A stretch of DNA of 64,000 bases from Herpetosiphon aurantiacus DSM 785 (GTDB taxonomy: Bacteria; Chloroflexota; Chloroflexia; Chloroflexales; Herpetosiphonaceae): positions 1,255,199 to 1,319,198 of the forward strand of contig CP000875.1 of assembly GCA_000018565.1 (NCBI GenBank), in the 5' to 3' direction. Below are positions 5,416 through 60,741 of the stretch, one piece after another. The position numbers and the translations under genes were made by a program. Positions within the stretch are counted from its first letter, which is position 1. The number at the start of each line of letters is the position of its first letter. The notes under the pieces were generated by a model that saw nothing but the letters and a program-made list of their open reading frames with translations, was not told the DNA's origin and did not search any database.

Positions 5416-6282
5416 ATGTCGCTGCTTGATCACGTTGATTTATCGTTGGATTTGGGCAAAAAAAGCTATGAGCGCCAACTCACCGATTTGCAATTTAAAA
5501 TGTTGCGCTTGCAACGCGCCGTGACCCAAATTGGGCATCGCATGGTTTTGGTGTTTGAAGGCTGGGATGCGAGCGGCAAGGGCGGTGTGATCAAACGCCT
5601 GACCGAAGCGCTCGATCCGCGTGGGTTTGTGGTGCACCCAATTGCCGCACCTACCCCCGAAGAACGTGCCCACAATTATCTTTGGCGTTTTTGGAACCGT
5701 TTGCCCCGCGATGGCCAGATAGTTTTATTTGACCGTTCATGGTATGGTCGCGTGCTGGTGGAGCGGGTTGAAGGCTTTGCGACGATGCGCGAGTGGAGCC
5801 AAGCGTATGGCGAAATCAACGATTTTGAAAGAATTTTACATAACGATCGAACGTCGGTCTTGAAATTTTTCCTGCATATTTCGAGCGACGAGCAAGAAAA
5901 GCGTTTTCGGGAGCGCGAAAATGATCCGCTGAAAACCTGGAAATTAACCGAAGAAGATTGGCGCAATCGTGAGAAATGGTCGGAATATGCGATTGCAATT
6001 GATGAAATGCTGGCGCGAACATCCAGCGAAAACGCCCCATGGCAAGTGATTGCCGCCAACGACAAACGTTGGGCACGGATTGCGATTCTCAAGGCGGTAG
6101 TCGAAATGTTGGTCGCTGATATGCCGTTTGAATTTGACGATGCTAATACCTTGGTGCTCGATCGATCGGGCGCTTATGCCTTGGTTGATGCGGGCAAACT
6201 CTCAGCCAAAGCGGTTGAAGCGGTAATTGCCGAAGAAGAGAAAGTGCGGAAGTTGCTCAAAAAGCAGCGCAAGGAAAACTAA
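5416..6282 (+). CDS. ppk2: Polyphosphate kinase 2 family phosphotransferase
   Basis: 288 residues from the ATG at 5416, chosen because AAAGGAG lies 7 bases upstream; the frame is open seven codons further. PPK2 enzymes move phosphate between inorganic polyphosphate and nucleotides in the cytoplasm. Visible signatures are Walker A (GWDASGKGG, near residue 50), the lid/PPK2 motif (WRFWNRLPRDG), Walker B (IVLFDRSWYGRVLVERV) and the downstream REND..KTWKLTEEDW region. Length and single-domain form fit the short PPK2 classes; which nucleotide is used (AMP, ADP or GDP) cannot be fixed by eye. The C-terminus is Lys-rich (KLLKKQRKEN). It seems to be monocistronic, lying between a terminator and the homoserine dehydrogenase gene. 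Confidence 0.93.
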   Translation: MSLLDHVDLSLDLGKKSYERQLTDLQFKMLRLQRAVTQIGHRMVLVFEGWDASGKGGVIKRLTEALDPRGFVVHPIAAPTPEERAHNYLWRFWNRLPRDGQIVLFDRSWYGRVLVERVEGFATMREWSQAYGEINDFERILHNDRTSVLKFFLHISSDEQEKRFRERENDPLKTWKLTEEDWRNREKWSEYAIAIDEMLARTSSENAPWQVIAANDKRWARIAILKAVVEMLVADMPFEFDDANTLVLDRSGAYALVDAGKLSAKAVEAVIAEEEKVRKLLKKQRKEN

Positions 6283-55136: not shown

Positions 55137-57353
55137 CTAACCTAAAACTCGTGGATCAACCGTTTGATCGACCGAATCGAGAAATTCGCTAATTGTTGGC
55201 AGGGTTGATGTAGCCGCAGCTTGCCCCACAAAATGGCTCACCTGCTCGGCAGTTTGCTTGAAAAAGAGCAGTGTGGCTGGATCAGGCTGAAGCTCTTGGT
55301 TATAAGGATCTTGCATGCGCTCAGCAAACTCCAAGGCTTGTTGGGCCAATTTGGGATAATGCTCAGCCAAAATTGCCGCGAGAGTGATCATCTCTTCGCC
55401 CGATTGCTCCAAATTTTGCAATTGAGCTTGAATATCAAAAACTGGGCGCAAAAGCTCGAAAGCACGTTGGATTTGGCCTTTTTTATACCAAACTCTAGCC
55501 AATGCACTCTGCGAACCAGGAATTAAGTTGCGAGCATCGTTTTGCAGGGCTAGATTGAGTGATTCCTCCAGTGCCTCTTGGGCTAATTCCAAATCATCAA
55601 TCGCACAGGCGAGCCAGCCACGAGCACTCTGACAGAGAATAATCCCAACTTGATTGCCAAGGCTACGATTGATCTGCAAGCTTTGTTGGTAGCAACGTTC
55701 AGCATCATCGAAACGACCCAAACCAGTGTAGGAGCTGGCCAAATTGCTCAAGGCCGCAGCTTCACCTGAACGATCATCCATGGCTTGCCAGCGTGCCACA
55801 ACATCTTCGCCAAGCTCCACTGCTTTTTGATAGTAGCGTTGTTGATAGGCCAATGACGATAAATTATGCAAGGCGCGGGTTTCGCCAAAGGTATCGCCAA
55901 CTTGCTTGAATAAGGCTTGACCACGCTCATACCATAACGTTGCATCAGCATGATCGGCAAAATATTGGGCACAAATGCCTGCGGCAATCGCTGCTTTAGC
56001 GCGAACCACAGGCTCAATTTCGTGTTCGCGCCGCCATGCTTGGCGAATCCAGACCCGCGCTTCTTGGGCATAGCCTTTGGTAAACCAAAACAACCACAAC
56101 GAGCCAGCAATCCGCAAGGCTGTGGCGGGATGCTGCTCAACCGCCCAATCCAGCACCGAGCGCAAGTTGTAAATATCACTCTGCAAGCGAGCCATCCATA
56201 GCGGTTGATCGGCTCCGAGCAAGGGTTTTTCGGCACTCTCAGCCAAATGGGTAAAGTATGAGCTATACAATCGTTGCAAGTGGTTAGCTTCGCGGCGACG
56301 TTGTAAACGACCCTCGGCATAAGCATGCACCGCATCAAGCATCAGATAGCGATGATCGCCGTTGGGCAGAGTTTCAAGCTGTACCAACGATTTATCGACC
56401 AAGGTTTGTAAGCCTTCAACCACATTGATCGGTACGTCGGGAATGCCCGCGCAAATCGCTTCAGCCGATTCGAGCGTCCAACTGCCGCGAAAGATCCCCA
56501 AGCGAATAAACAACACTTGCAGCGTTGGCGAAAGCAGGCGATAGCACCAATCGAGCACTGGCCACAAAATTTCTTTGCGTTGCATGGTGCTGTTTTTGTC
56601 GATCATAGCCGCACCCAAGCGCAAGTGATGCCGCACCATGCGCACCAAATCAGAGGGCGGTAAGCTGCGACTATGGCTAGCGACAAGCTCGACGGCCAAC
56701 GGCAAGCCCTGCACCAAACGACATATTTCGGCGATCGCCTGAGCTTGTGGTTGATCGACTTTGAGCATTGGCTGCAACCGTCGCAATCGTTCGCTAAACA
56801 ATTGCACAGCGCCATATTGCAAAATTTCGCTGGCGCTCAAGCGAGCATCTTCGGCAGGCACGCTCAATAATGGCACCCGATAGATCGTTTCAGCAGCCAC
56901 GTTCAGCGCCACTTGGCTAGTGACCAAAATGGTTAATTGCGGCACGGCTGTGACTAAGGCTTGCACATCCGAGGCAGCCTCGACTACATGATCAATATTA
57001 TCGAGAATTAACAAGCTCGGTTGATGTGGAAAATGGGCGGCAATCGTGGTGAGCAATGGTTGATCGGAGGTGGGAGCGATACCGAGGCTTTCGGCAATCG
57101 TTGCTAGCACTAAACCCGCCGCCCGAATCGGCACCAACGACACAAAAAAACAGCCACCAACAAATTGGTCGGCATATAAACGGGCACAATCAACCGCCAA
57201 ACGGGTTTTGCCCGCGCCGCTTGCCCCAACTAAACTAATTAACCGCTGACCTTGGGCCAATAAAGCCCCAATTTCAGCAGTTTCAGCATCACGCCCAATT
57301 AGAGCAGTGGTGTAACGTGGAAGGAGATCGGAATGTTCTGTCTGCATATTCAC
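55137..57353 (-). CDS. NB-ARC/STAND ATPase with TPR repeats
   Basis: 738 residues. The ATPase domain has Walker A VGASGAGKTRLAVD near residue 44, Walker B SLLILDNIDHV near 116 and ILVTSQVALNV, then the GLPLAVELVASHSRSL motif and a winged-helix region, as in AfsR/MalT-type regulators. TPR repeats fill about 400-700 (ALHNLSSLAYQQRYYQKAV, AALSNLASSYTGLGRFDDAERCY). Neither end carries a DNA-binding or effector domain, so output is probably by protein contact. Start is a GTG at 57353 or ATG at 57347; no clear ribosome site. It is a single-chain counterpart of the split pair at 17889-20670. Confidence 0.88.
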   Translation of the reverse strand: MNMQTEHSDLLPRYTTALIGRDAETAEIGALLAQGQRLISLVGASGAGKTRLAVDCARLYADQFVGGCFFVSLVPIRAAGLVLATIAESLGIAPTSDQPLLTTIAAHFPHQPSLLILDNIDHVVEAASDVQALVTAVPQLTILVTSQVALNVAAETIYRVPLLSVPAEDARLSASEILQYGAVQLFSERLRRLQPMLKVDQPQAQAIAEICRLVQGLPLAVELVASHSRSLPPSDLVRMVRHHLRLGAAMIDKNSTMQRKEILWPVLDWCYRLLSPTLQVLFIRLGIFRGSWTLESAEAICAGIPDVPINVVEGLQTLVDKSLVQLETLPNGDHRYLMLDAVHAYAEGRLQRRREANHLQRLYSSYFTHLAESAEKPLLGADQPLWMARLQSDIYNLRSVLDWAVEQHPATALRIAGSLWLFWFTKGYAQEARVWIRQAWRREHEIEPVVRAKAAIAAGICAQYFADHADATLWYERGQALFKQVGDTFGETRALHNLSSLAYQQRYYQKAVELGEDVVARWQAMDDRSGEAAALSNLASSYTGLGRFDDAERCYQQSLQINRSLGNQVGIILCQSARGWLACAIDDLELAQEALEESLNLALQNDARNLIPGSQSALARVWYKKGQIQRAFELLRPVFDIQAQLQNLEQSGEEMITLAAILAEHYPKLAQQALEFAERMQDPYNQELQPDPATLLFFKQTAEQVSHFVGQAAATSTLPTISEFLDSVDQTVDPRVLG

Positions 57354-57531: not shown

Positions 57532-59118
57532 TTAGAGTGTAATCTGCTCGATCGTGCTCAGCTGATCGGCATATCCAAGCAAGCTTTGGGCGATATAGGC
57601 TGGCACATGCTCGGCCCAGCCAAAAATAAAGCTGACATTTGGCTCATCGGGCGGGGCAACCGCGTGTGGATAGGGCGCAATCGTGATTAAAAATGCTTGA
57701 GCTTTGGGATTAACCTTGGCCAAATATTTACGCCAGACACTGACAAAACTTGTTCCACTATCGCTATCACGTGCCCATTCTTCGTTGTCAGTAATCGCAA
57801 TTACTACATCGACCACCTCACGGCGCTCGTACAAGTAGGAAATTGGGGCGGAAACCGCGGTTCCACCACCAAGTTTGGCCGTAATTTGCTTTGTCAACCA
57901 CATCAATTTGGTTTCGCGCCAAGTCTCCATCTGAACAATGCTGGTATTAAAAGGTAGCAGTTGGGCGGTTGGGTTGCTGCGATAGAGCGAGCCAGCGAAA
58001 ATGCCTGCAACATCGACATAACGTACTTGCGACTTCGGATTGATAGAGCCGCGCATCGAGCCAGAAACATCTGGGGCAACCACGACCCGCCCAGGAATTT
58101 CGGGCATGTTGACGAAGGCCATTTCGATCATCTGCTCAAGCGTTTGCTGAATCAGCTTTTCCTGCTCGCTTAGTGGCGTGAAGGCCAACCAAGCTGCGTG
58201 CAAACGGAAGGGCAAAATCTTGGCGCGGCGCAAGGCCTCAAGGTCGCCCAAACGCCCAACCACATACTCAATCATCGCCGCATCGTGGAACACACCTGCT
58301 CGTTGTAGGCTAGCCAAATTGCGTAGCAAGGCCAAATAGGGCATTTGCTCGATCAACGTTCGCCACATGGCCAAATCTGGCTTGCCCGTACCTGTGACAA
58401 TTTCGTAGGGCAGACGACCAGCCTCAACCAACGCTCGCTGCTCAGTCGGATCGCTCGTGCGCTTGAGTTGCTCGACCGCTGCGATTTGCGGCAACAGCGT
58501 GGATGCTTGCTCAGCCCAAGTTGTGCGCCAGCGCTCACGATCGATCAAATAACTGAACAAAGCATTAGTACGATCATCGATAGGTTGCGGACGCGTTAGG
58601 CGTAGCACATCGCGTAGGGTCATGCTGCCTGCATTCGTGCCACCATATTTAATTACGTGATATTCGCTCAGGTTAAGCAACCAATCATTGATTGTTTGCT
58701 TGATTGCCCGACCCATACCAGGCCGAATCTGACGCGAACGCACAATTTGCACAAAATCTTGCAAATCGCCTGGCGTTAGAATAATGCGCTTGAATATTAG
58801 GTGAAACAAGCCCAAATCGACAGTTGATAGCACAACCAAGCCGATAATTGGCTGAAGGCGCATGGTTCCTTGTTCGCGAGCATACACTAAGGCTTTTGCA
58901 GCAAAGAGTGGGTTATGGGCTAACATGGCTTGATGCAACTCCAAGGCCAAGGCATAATTGCTACCTTGCGAGGCGTAAAAGGTTGAGCCAATGGTATTGG
59001 TCAACAAAGTTTGCATATACCGTTCAGCCAAACTGCGTTGATAGGTAGGGAAGCCCTCGTGGTTAAGCCCATGTGCTGCATCAGGCGTGCGAGCAAACAG
59101 GCGGCGAACAATGTTCAT
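57532..59118 (-). CDS. rsr: Ro60 orthologue (TROVE + VWA RNA-binding protein)
   Basis: 528 residues from the ATG at 59118, chosen because GGAGGTGG lies just upstream; the frame is open 18 codons further. The N-terminal TROVE domain (about 10-340, HEAT-like ring) shows FYASQGSNYALALELHQAML, AKALVYAREQGTMRLQPIIGL, VRSRQIRPGMGRAIKQTINDWL and VIKYGGTNAGSMTLRDVLRLTRP. The VWA domain (about 345-528) has an intact metal site (VVAPDVSGSMRGS; ITDNEEWARD). Ro60 binds Y RNAs and the 3' ends of misfolded RNA and in bacteria tethers to PNPase. The about 1 kb upstream, on the same strand, encodes tRNA-like and Y-RNA-like structures, as expected for a Ro60 locus. Confidence 0.95.
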   Translation of the reverse strand: MNIVRRLFARTPDAAHGLNHEGFPTYQRSLAERYMQTLLTNTIGSTFYASQGSNYALALELHQAMLAHNPLFAAKALVYAREQGTMRLQPIIGLVVLSTVDLGLFHLIFKRIILTPGDLQDFVQIVRSRQIRPGMGRAIKQTINDWLLNLSEYHVIKYGGTNAGSMTLRDVLRLTRPQPIDDRTNALFSYLIDRERWRTTWAEQASTLLPQIAAVEQLKRTSDPTEQRALVEAGRLPYEIVTGTGKPDLAMWRTLIEQMPYLALLRNLASLQRAGVFHDAAMIEYVVGRLGDLEALRRAKILPFRLHAAWLAFTPLSEQEKLIQQTLEQMIEMAFVNMPEIPGRVVVAPDVSGSMRGSINPKSQVRYVDVAGIFAGSLYRSNPTAQLLPFNTSIVQMETWRETKLMWLTKQITAKLGGGTAVSAPISYLYERREVVDVVIAITDNEEWARDSDSGTSFVSVWRKYLAKVNPKAQAFLITIAPYPHAVAPPDEPNVSFIFGWAEHVPAYIAQSLLGYADQLSTIEQITL

Positions 59119-59269
59119 GGCCACCTCCAAGTTATAAGGTAGGAAAACGACTCTTCTCAACAAAGCAACCATGGTCTAGCCCGAATCACACTTGCGGATC
59201 AAACGCTATGAATTGGTTTGGGCAACTACATCACAGCTGATTCGTCTAGACCATGGTGTCAGAATAGGT

Positions 59270-59378
59270 CGGGCCTAGCAGGACTCGAACCTGCGACCTA
59301 AGTAGCCCCTACTATCACCTCGTGAACGAGGAAGTTGACGCAGAAGCAGTTTGCTCTACCAACTGAGCTATAGGCCCG
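59270..59378 (-). ncRNA. tRNA-like Y RNA candidate 1 (Y module in the anticodon arm)
   Basis: Acceptor stem GGGCCTA (59377-59371 read leftward) with TAGGCCC (59277-59271), D arm GCTC-AGTTGGTA-GAGC (59368-59353) and T arm GCAGG-TTCGAGT-CCTGC (59294-59278) are all canonical. The space for anticodon arm plus variable loop is 57-58 nt instead of about 22. It holds a small hairpin (ACTGC-TTCT-GCGT, one bulge) and the hairpin CCTCG-TTCA-CGAGG followed by the conserved Y strand at 59321-59300. There is no usable anticodon and no encoded CCA. It lies 152 bp upstream of Ro60 on the same strand. Confidence 0.8.
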
Positions 59379-59383
59379 AAATT

Positions 59384-59413
59384 AAGGATGAAGGATAAGG
59401 GATGAAGGATGAA
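59384..59413. repeat. Short direct repeat GGATGAAGG(AT)
   Basis: AAGGATGAAGGATAAGG followed by GATGAAGGATGAAG: three to four iterations of GGATGAAG, also echoed near 63620 (ATCCTTCATCC, opposite strand). This is a low-complexity dispersed motif of the intergenic DNA. Confidence 0.55.
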
Positions 59414-59495
59414 GCCAAACCCACAGATGCTGCCAATAGCTCAGCGCCTTGCTCTCTGCGCCTCTGCTTTAAACCCTTCTTCGTGCCCTTTGCGT

Positions 59496-59524
59496 TCTTC
59501 GCGGTTACAGCCTTCGTGGATCAA
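59496..59524. repeat. 29-bp direct repeat, copy 1
   Basis: Identical over 29 bp to 59792-59820 (begins TCTTCGCGGTTACAG, ends CTTCGTGGATCAA). The flanks share the CTTCGTG/CTTCGCG pattern, also seen at 63594-63615. The two copies bracket the second tRNA-like RNA. Confidence 0.85.
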
Positions 59525-59529
59525 TGTAG

Positions 59530-59664
59530 GTGAGCACAATAGGAATCGAACCTATACGTCAGGTCAACGAAGTAACTCCCACGATCACCTCAAATTGAGG
59601 AAGAGTTGTTGAAGTACTGTGCCGAAGCACATCCTGATGTTCTGCCGTTAAACTATGTGCTCAC
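59530..59664 (-). ncRNA. tRNA-like Y RNA candidate 2 (Y module in the anticodon loop)
   Basis: A 9-bp acceptor (GTGAGCACA with TGTGCTCAC), D arm GTTT...GAAC, T arm ATAGG-TTCGATT-CCTAT (59555-59539) and a preserved anticodon stem TCAGG (59637-59633) with CCTGA (59563-59559) are seen. Between the stem halves are about 69 nt: a hairpin TGTGC-TTCG-GCACA with a UUCG tetraloop (59631-59618), then TCAAC, AACTC and TTCCTCA pairing with TGAGG, GAGTT and GTTGA. The conserved Y strand is 59591-59570. The CCTCA/TGAGG pair here against CCTCG/CGAGG in candidate 1 is a compensatory change. No encoded CCA. Confidence 0.82.
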
Positions 59665-59791
59665 GTTTATAGTTCGGCGGTCAGGGGCTGGGGATCGGTA
59701 ACGTTTTCCATCCCAACCACACGTACCAAACCTGCAAATTTCCCGATAACCACTAGCTATCAGCCTAAAACCTTCTTCGTGATCTTCGCGC

Positions 59792-59820
59792 TCTTCGCGG
59801 TTACAGCCTTCGTGGATCAA
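59792..59820. repeat. 29-bp direct repeat, copy 2
   Basis: Identical to 59496-59524, 296 bp away, in the same orientation. Preceded by CTTCTTCGTGATCTTCGCGC, a further variant of the same CTTCG(T/C)G unit. Confidence 0.85.
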
Positions 59821-59834
59821 GATCTATTGCTAGA

Positions 59835-59918
59835 CTACCATCGTGTTACAAGGGTTCCAAGAAGCGGCTGATTAAAGCCCGCATTCGCCACATTAACATT
59901 GGTTGGTTCCTCTGGTAG
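59835..59918 (-). ncRNA. Possible additional structured RNA
   Basis: The ends CTACCA (59835-59840) and TGGTAG (59913-59918) are complementary and enclose an inner GCGG/CCGC pair around GCTTTAATCA. It lacks the conserved Y strand. A separate hairpin GCATAC/GTATGC (59921-59946) follows. Function not assignable; listed because it lies inside the Ro60 RNA cluster. Confidence 0.35.
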
Positions 59919-59961
59919 CGGCATACGACTCCTTCAATCGGTATGCTGAACGTTCAGGGCT

Positions 59962-60022
59962 GCTGAGGAAAAGGCGTGGAACTTCGTGGTTCAAGCGAAG
60001 TATGTCCCACAAGCACCTCAGC
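59962..60022 (-). ncRNA. Free-standing Y RNA candidate 3
   Basis: Read leftward: GCTGAGG (60022-60016), TGCTT, GTGGGA, CAT, ACTTCG, loop CTTGAACCA, CGAAGT, TCCACG, CCTTTT, CCTCAGC (59968-59962). Terminal stem GCTGAGG/CCTCAGC, middle stem GTGGGA/TCCAC with one mismatch or bulge, and upper stem ACTTCG/CGAAGT, with an asymmetric internal loop. The conserved strand is 60019-59998. This is the Y RNA layout, with 5' and 3' ends paired, and no tRNA parts. The strand order is opposite to candidates 1 and 2. Confidence 0.75.
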
Positions 60023-60031
60023 AAACTCTCA

Positions 60032-60112
60032 CTTGTCTCCCACAAGCTGGCGAGGAAGCTGGCTAAATCGTAAACACTTCACCTCGCCAACTTGTTGATT
60101 CTCTCCCACAAG
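60032..60112 (-). ncRNA. Divergent Y-like hairpin flanked by two CTTGT/ACAAG hairpins
   Basis: A central stem GGCGAGG (60088-60082) with CCTCGCC (60055-60049) begins GAGGTGAAG and ends CTTCCTC, the outer motifs of the Y units, but lacks the middle. It is flanked by CTTGT-GGGAG-ACAAG (60046-60032) and CTTGT...ACAAG with a 12-base loop that also begins GGGAGA (60112-60091). The motif GCTTGTGGGA therefore recurs three times between 60005 and 60112. This may be a degenerate or diverged fourth RNA. Confidence 0.5.
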
Positions 60113-60196
60113 CGCTAACCCCTTGATGTTGCAATCGATCATTGGCTAGCGATACCTCAAGCTATTGGTTAATTCCTACTCCGCTCGTTCTCTCCC

Positions 60197-60667
60197 TCAA
60201 GCGGTCTTTTTGGCTTTTCCGCGCCATGGTAAACGCCATGAAGTTGGTTCGGGCGCTGTCTCAATCTGCGCCAATTCCAACACCTTACGCACATAGCGGC
60301 GCACTTCACCTTGGCAAGCATCCAAGCGCTTGGCAACTTTGGCGGCATCTTCCACCACCACAGGCACCCGCAAGGTTTGATCAAACCAAGAAACAATCCC
60401 AGTTACATCGCGCATCGTTTTGGTTGGCGCAGTTAAGCAAACCACCCGAATCAAAACATCGGAGCGTTTAATCTTAGGATGTTGAACGGTAAACATAGGG
60501 CTGGCAATATAATTGGCATAGATCAAGACTTTCGCAATCAGCAAACGATAGCGGAGGCTGTCATCAGCGACTGAACCATTGTCTACGATCCATAAATCCA
60601 ACCCAGGCCGGGCGGGGTCGAGTGAACCCGCAACAATATCAATGCGGGTAGGATCTTCGAGCGTCAT
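60197..60667 (-). CDS. Conserved protein of unknown function in the Ro60 locus
   Basis: 156 residues from the ATG at 60667 (AGAGG upstream); a TTG two codons earlier is possible. The middle has an alternating strand/helix pattern: RIDIVAGSL, LDLWIVDNGSV, RYRLLIAKVLIYANYI and DVLIRVVCLTAPTKTM. The C-terminus is basic (SWRLPWRGKAKKTA), which could suit RNA binding. The opening DPTRIDIVAG recalls DUF6572-type proteins, not certain. It lies directly upstream of the RNA cluster and Ro60 on the same strand, so it may be part of that unit. Confidence 0.7.
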   Translation of the reverse strand: MTLEDPTRIDIVAGSLDPARPGLDLWIVDNGSVADDSLRYRLLIAKVLIYANYIASPMFTVQHPKIKRSDVLIRVVCLTAPTKTMRDVTGIVSWFDQTLRVPVVVEDAAKVAKRLDACQGEVRRYVRKVLELAQIETAPEPTSWRLPWRGKAKKTA

Positions 60668-60741
60668 GAGCAAACCTCTAGCTAAAACAAAATAGTCGTC
60701 ACTGCTGTGACGACCATAGCATTAGCGTGTGTCAGTACGCG

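Follow-up and report, generated by a model that had tools for sequence, protein, structure and literature searches.

A cluster of three RNA-like units upstream of the Ro60 gene of Herpetosiphon aurantiacus DSM 785 very probably encodes the Y RNAs of this bacterium in two topologies, one unit being free-standing (U3) and two being shaped like tRNAs (U1 and U2). The cluster lies in a 64,000-nucleotide stretch of contig CP000875.1 (positions 1,255,199 to 1,319,198; here called the window, whose numbering is used throughout for U1 to U3 and their neighbours). An earlier, sequence-only reading of this DNA had proposed Y-RNA-like genes lying upstream of Ro60 and sharing its strand, with the Ro-binding module nested in the anticodon arm of a nearly complete tRNA and the acceptor ends left free. 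The placement stands: all three units are encoded on the minus strand and occupy the interval from a 158-aa open reading frame (60197-60673) to Ro60. The identity of Ro60 (57532-59118, minus) was confirmed by matches to the domain profiles TROVE (5.7e-16) and vWA_Ro60 (1.9e-17), and the protein also matches the PDB Ro60/Rsr entries 9nen, 1yvp and 2nvo. The reading frame opens at 59172, but translation likely starts at the ATG at 59118, which is preceded by a GGAGG ribosome-binding site, so that U1 ends about 150 nucleotides upstream of Ro60. A scan for sigma-70 promoters upstream of the RNA units returned no site.

U1 (59270-59377, minus) is a tRNA body with a predicted Ro-binding arm in place of its entire anticodon arm; in U2 (59531-59662, minus) an anticodon stem surrounds a UUCG hairpin and a predicted Ro-binding arm. 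The Rfam tRNA model (RF00005, gathering cut-off 29 bits) matched both units over its whole length, U1 with 52.6 bits (E 2.1e-9) and 40 nucleotides unmodelled at the anticodon loop, and U2 with 47.0 bits (E 7.4e-8) and 66 nucleotides unmodelled there. The covariance-model search suggested with the sequence-only reading thus bears out two tRNA-bodied units with an enlarged anticodon region. The lengths first given for that region were about 57 and about 79 nucleotides; the distance from D stem to T stem is 58 nucleotides in U1 and 83 in U2. The unit ends, first given as 59270-59378 and 59530-59664, are here those of the tRNA-model matches. Against R1, a covariance model of class A units (the motif class of the window, described below), U1 scored 104.4 bits and U2 119.1 bits.

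In both units all seven acceptor pairs and all five T-stem pairs are formed, and the D arm precedes the T arm with the acceptor strands at the two ends, which is the unpermuted tRNA order. In U1 the acceptor pairs 59371-59377 with 59271-59277, the D arm occupies 59353-59368 and the T arm 59278-59294. The predicted Ro-binding arm of U1 (59305-59347, minus) has an 8-bp stem GCUUCUGC/GUAGGGGC, an asymmetric internal loop and a closed hairpin CCUCG-UUCA-CGAGG; its helices are seen in the class A alignment, and it is the permuted counterpart of U3. U2 has an anticodon-like stem UCAGG/CCUGA (59633-59637 with 59559-59563), and its predicted Ro-binding arm, UACUUCAACAACUCUUCCUC-AAUUU-GAGGUGAUCGUGGGAGUUACUUCG (59568-59616, minus), was drawn from the sequence and the alignments. 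A 7-nucleotide anticodon loop capable of decoding is absent from both units on reading their sequences, and a default ARAGORN run on the window called neither. Orthologues of U1 are present in five other Herpetosiphon genomes and those of U2 in genomes G045 and G047.

U3 (59962-60022, minus), already set apart as a free-standing third unit, is a separate closed hairpin with no tRNA body, whose ends pair in the basal stem GCUGAGG/CCUCAGC; it is conserved in six Herpetosiphon genomes. It was found independently by R3, a covariance model made from class A nested Ro arms only, which were opened at the terminal loop and joined through a GAAA linker where they had met the tRNA, to give the topology of an ordinary Y RNA. 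R3 matched U3 at 59964-60020 (43.9 bits, E 8.6e-9), the sole place in the 6.8-Mb genome that passed E 1. At the other class A loci (class A being defined below) it likewise detected free Y units. Across 158 whole genomes it matched 11 places in nine genomes, all on Ro60 contigs; it found free Y units at eight Ro60 loci besides that of U3, and nothing elsewhere. The asymmetric internal loop and the conserved motif of the Ro-binding stem are common to U3 and the nested arms. Ends paired in the Ro-binding stem, a criterion for Y RNAs, were seen in U3 only, the ends of U1 and U2 being paired in the acceptor. Because nested arms, once re-cut, find free Y units, the nested arm and the free unit are one module in two circular permutations, and U1 and U2 are circular permutants of the free-standing Y RNA. 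The proposed nesting of a Ro module in the anticodon arm of a free-ended tRNA is therefore supported, the arm being the permuted U3 module and the acceptor pairs covarying.

Nested units fall into two motif classes: class A, which includes those of the window, with UUCCUCG..CGAGGUGAUAGUAGGAGUUACUUCG, and class B, with CACCUUGCCCG..CGGGCCGAUGGCCGAGGGUUAUCG, a motif that resembles that of vertebrate Y RNAs. In an alignment of 19 class A units, 97.3% of the cells of 29 named pairs were standard pairs, against 42-48% when the partner was slid; double changes affected 7/7 acceptor, 4/5 T, 2/4 D and 4/8 Ro-stem pairs. The 19 class B units gave 94.0% paired cells, against 42-52% when slid, with double changes again in 7/7 acceptor pairs. 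Since every acceptor pair is doubly changed in both alignments, the two ends of each unit pair together and the topology is fixed. The T loop TTCRA was retained throughout the aligned units. Homologous loci in which the tRNA arms and the inserted stems were not both conserved had been named as evidence that would count against the proposal; both were found to be conserved, with compensatory changes.

The specificity of the units for Ro60 loci was examined by running R1 on the 158 whole genomes. Among the matches listed, ordinary tRNAs reached at most 57.4 bits and 73 nucleotides, and matches longer than 100 nucleotides came from 15 genomes, in 14 of them on the Ro60 contig. The exception is G003, whose nested unit, of class B, comes directly after a free Y unit; in support of a Y identity, the free unit matches RF01656, a nematode sbRNA family related to Y RNAs, with 39.8 bits (cut-off 38). 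Ro60 was found in 26 of the 158 genomes of the class, and also in others of the phylum; Fisher's test on the same matches (14/26 Ro60-positive genomes versus 1/132 others) gave p 3e-12, which is a measure of specificity and not of the full distribution. At E 1e-12, R2, the corresponding class B model, matched five of the 400 phylum genomes on which it was run, all of them TROVE-positive and all members of its training set. Given the covariation and this genome-wide specificity, the nested units are not chance.

The nested arrangement is not confined to Herpetosiphon. ARAGORN with introns allowed, a motif search and inspection together showed that 19 Chloroflexota genomes, belonging to several classes, carry nested units that precede Ro60 and share its strand (six Herpetosiphon and G049, G052, G053, G055, G002, G038, G097, G098, G068, G216, G300, G307 and G422). 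Many relatives differ from U1 and U2 in that the Ro arm stands between the D arm and a complete anticodon arm with a 7-nucleotide loop (L039 4595-4714, L045, L046, L077, L078, L101 2910-3034 and L107 2198-2320); their anticodon loops include CTGTTAA, CTTTTAA, TTGTCAC and CTTCCAA, and some free Y units are similarly capped (L038, L040). In Picosynechococcus, tandem nested units lie upstream of a TROVE gene on the three plasmids checked. Plasmids of Haloplanus, Haloarcula and Halosimplex, as well as halovirus HGTV-1, also carry nested-like units close to TROVE genes, and the nested design thus apparently extends to haloarchaea, as judged by manual reading of acceptor pairing, T arm and motif only, without a covariance test. 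The HGTV-1 unit (L092 971-1102), annotated as 'tRNA-Asp (gtc) + Intron', lies about 2.8 kb upstream of the viral TROVE gene and carries a Ro-like arm, GGAAGCGUUACUUCGC; it is probably a nested Y RNA rather than a split tRNA. Cyanobacterial tRNA 'introns' of 22-49 nucleotides (PMC5733544) were considered as possible nested units, and the motifs printed there do not match. No convincing nested unit was seen at the phage Ro60 loci of Myxococcus Mx1, Vibrio, Streptomyces, Thermus, Gordonia and Brevundimonas, and a Ro60 scan of viral contigs gave no match. Ordinary tRNA arrays were common at several of the phage Ro60 loci examined; separately, the Ro60 loci of G300 and G405 (L079, L080) adjoin arrays of about 20 ordinary tRNA genes.

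Directly after position 73, CC is encoded in 24 of 38 nested units and CCA in 14 of 38. In U1 an 8-bp acceptor (C-1:G73) is followed by A and CC, so that ACC (59267-59269, minus) stands in place of a complete CCA, and several further units fit the same pattern of an 8-bp acceptor and then A-CC(A).

Several observations weigh against reading the cluster as Y RNAs of two topologies. Both U1 and U2 read ACC-T, that is, without an encoded A76, which would therefore need to be added, and CCA is encoded in 20 of 20 ordinary tRNA genes checked in the same genome. With the searches described, no nested unit was detected at 15 of 34 Ro60-positive Chloroflexota loci, some of which are truncated by contig ends. 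R3 does not reach class B, so that the two classes are joined by position and motif and not by a model. R1 and R2 were trained on units from Ro60 loci, which makes the linkage test to some extent circular as regards sensitivity but leaves its specificity unaffected. Finally, no Ro60 was found in the draft genome of G003, which carries both a nested and a free Y unit (L107 2127-2320).

The nested units were compared with YrlA, the proteobacterial Y RNA (Rfam RF02553; Chen et al. 2014; structure 6CU1). Like them, YrlA is encoded at Ro60 loci and combines one Ro-binding stem with a tRNA-like domain that has D and T arms. YrlA has been recognised as a circular permutation of tRNA (PMC11472068). 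In Rhizobium and Xanthomonas its order is Ro strand, T arm, acceptor 3' strand, loop, acceptor 5' strand, D arm, Ro strand. YrlA ends in the Ro stem and is reportedly without a free CCA end, whereas the nested units end at the acceptor, often with an encoded CCA, and their Ro stem is a closed hairpin. From the permutation of nested and free Y units and this strand order it follows that the nested units are, by topology, permutants of YrlA also. The YrlA model scored 72.1 bits on Xanthomonas as a positive control; its best match in the window was 20.2 bits (cut-off 69), overlapping U1 by the T arm, and none reached the cut-off in 32 Chloroflexota loci, an absence that is only suggestive as the model also misses the Rhizobium YrlA. 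A Xanthomonas sacchari plasmid carries tandem YrlA copies between Ro60 and rtcB (L098 5580-6200). In this array the YrlA match at 5860-5988 overlaps a tRNA match at 5932-6067 that extends from one YrlA unit into the next; such an arrangement could have led from one permutation to the other.

Other known RNAs share parts of the design. Free-standing Y RNAs (Deinococcus Y RNA, YrlB, animal Y RNAs and nematode sbRNAs) have the topology of U3 and its homologues, and their Ro element recurs in permuted order in the nested arms, to which the nested units add a tRNA body; the Rfam vertebrate Y RNA models gave no match in the window. Canonical tRNA shares with the nested units its acceptor, its D and T arms, the T loop TTCRA and, in many units, CC or CCA, but U1 and U2 lack its 7-nucleotide anticodon loop and carry an extra Ro arm. 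Transfer-messenger RNA (tmRNA) likewise joins a tRNA acceptor and T arm with free CCA to a foreign module; the nested units differ in having no coding part, a full D arm and linkage to Ro60.

Four other explanations of U1 and U2 were weighed. ARAGORN with introns allowed reads the units as tRNAs with introns of 17-62 nucleotides, the HGTV-1 unit carries such an annotation and some relatives retain the whole anticodon arm, all as expected of tRNA genes whose intron is spliced out to give working tRNAs. This is nevertheless improbable: the U1 orthologues do not agree on an 'anticodon' (TTC for Glu in three genomes, TCT for Arg in three), U1 retains no anticodon stem on which splicing could act, Rfam gave no group I intron match in the window or the Chloroflexota loci, and conservation and covariation extend beyond the body to the insert, which equals the free-standing Y unit. 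Decay of tRNA genes into pseudogenes with random inserts, with which the rejection of U1 and U2 by default ARAGORN would agree, is refuted to near certainty by the covariation, since all arms are conserved with double changes over many genera and the T loop is kept. It is also very unlikely that the tRNA match is a composite of two adjacent YrlA copies, with its parts taken from the 5' half of the first and the 3' half of the second. That description is true of the Xanthomonas array and was rejected for the window units, where, as in the relatives, the acceptor strands within a single unit pair 7/7 with compensatory changes, the acceptors of U1 and U2 are different and show no pairing between the two units, the Ro arm forms a hairpin closed by a loop of 4-5 nucleotides, and the YrlA scores in the window and the Chloroflexota loci fall short as described above.

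The main rival assigns the tRNA body another role: it might serve mainly as a decoy or sensor for tRNA-cleaving enzymes such as anticodon nucleases, with Ro60 as its carrier, and not as a tether to a degradation enzyme. It has been suggested that YrlA may inhibit an anticodon nuclease (Hughes et al. 2020, PMC7790460), and a UCGA-7nt-UCGA hairpin with an anticodon-like loop (U33, purine 37) occurs in several Y units of both kinds, nested and free. Such loops were counted in 14 of 32 hairpins found, a figure that includes a few false hairpins; U1 and U2 have none of this kind, and the RtcB genes, although present, are unlinked to the Ro60 locus. This role is a serious minority possibility, well ahead of the three explanations above.

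For the preferred reading, in which U1 and U2 are tRNA-shaped Y RNAs, we infer that the units are expressed and propose that enzymes of tRNA maturation (RNase P, RNase Z or exonucleases, and the CCA enzyme) would process the precursor at its tRNA ends. Judged by their ends, the intact acceptor/T stack and the T loop, tRNA end enzymes could probably act on the nested units. Ro60 would bind the arm at the anticodon position of U1 and U2, and the tRNA body could act as an effector domain, recruiting to Ro60 a partner that recognises tRNA or degrades RNA. The analogy is with YrlA, for which PNPase is proposed as the partner in a review (PMC8394870).

An unpermuted tRNA body and a frequently encoded CCA give reason to test whether tRNA-end enzymes, EF-Tu, synthetases and anticodon nucleases act on Ro60 particles. 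YrlA itself was presented as a tRNA mimic that lacks a free acceptor end. TRNA-shaped Y RNAs that are unpermuted and free-ended were not found described in the literature searched, outside which the central Y RNA papers lay, and there is a modest chance of an earlier mention. The two permutations side by side offer a concrete path from one RNA family to the other. A broader scenario is put forward tentatively, as somewhat less likely than its negation: Ro60 RNAs with a free CCA-tailed acceptor, which might be charged with an amino acid or acted on by EF-Tu or by tRNA nucleases, may be old and widespread in Bacteria and haloarchaea, the Ro arm having displaced the anticodon arm and YrlA being a permuted descendant of tandem copies, or the reverse. 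For annotation, a default tRNA search misses nested units or labels them 'tRNA + intron', as in HGTV-1.

Three further features of the locus were recorded. Ro60 is immediately followed, on its own strand, by a gene for an AAA/NB-ARC and TPR protein (55137-57353, minus), which keeps this position in Herpetosiphonaceae. Upstream of U3, at 60030-60120 (minus), CTTGTGGGA(G) repeats and a GGCGAGG/CCTCGCC hairpin are possibly a degenerate extra Y unit. Between U1 and Ro60, a structured 88-nucleotide element (59169-59256, minus), conserved in six Herpetosiphon genomes, folds into a long outer stem CCATGGTCTAG/CTAGACCATGG with two inner hairpins; both sides of the outer stem have changed in relatives, a T run stands behind the element in several, and it may be either a Ro60 attenuator or an additional non-coding RNA.
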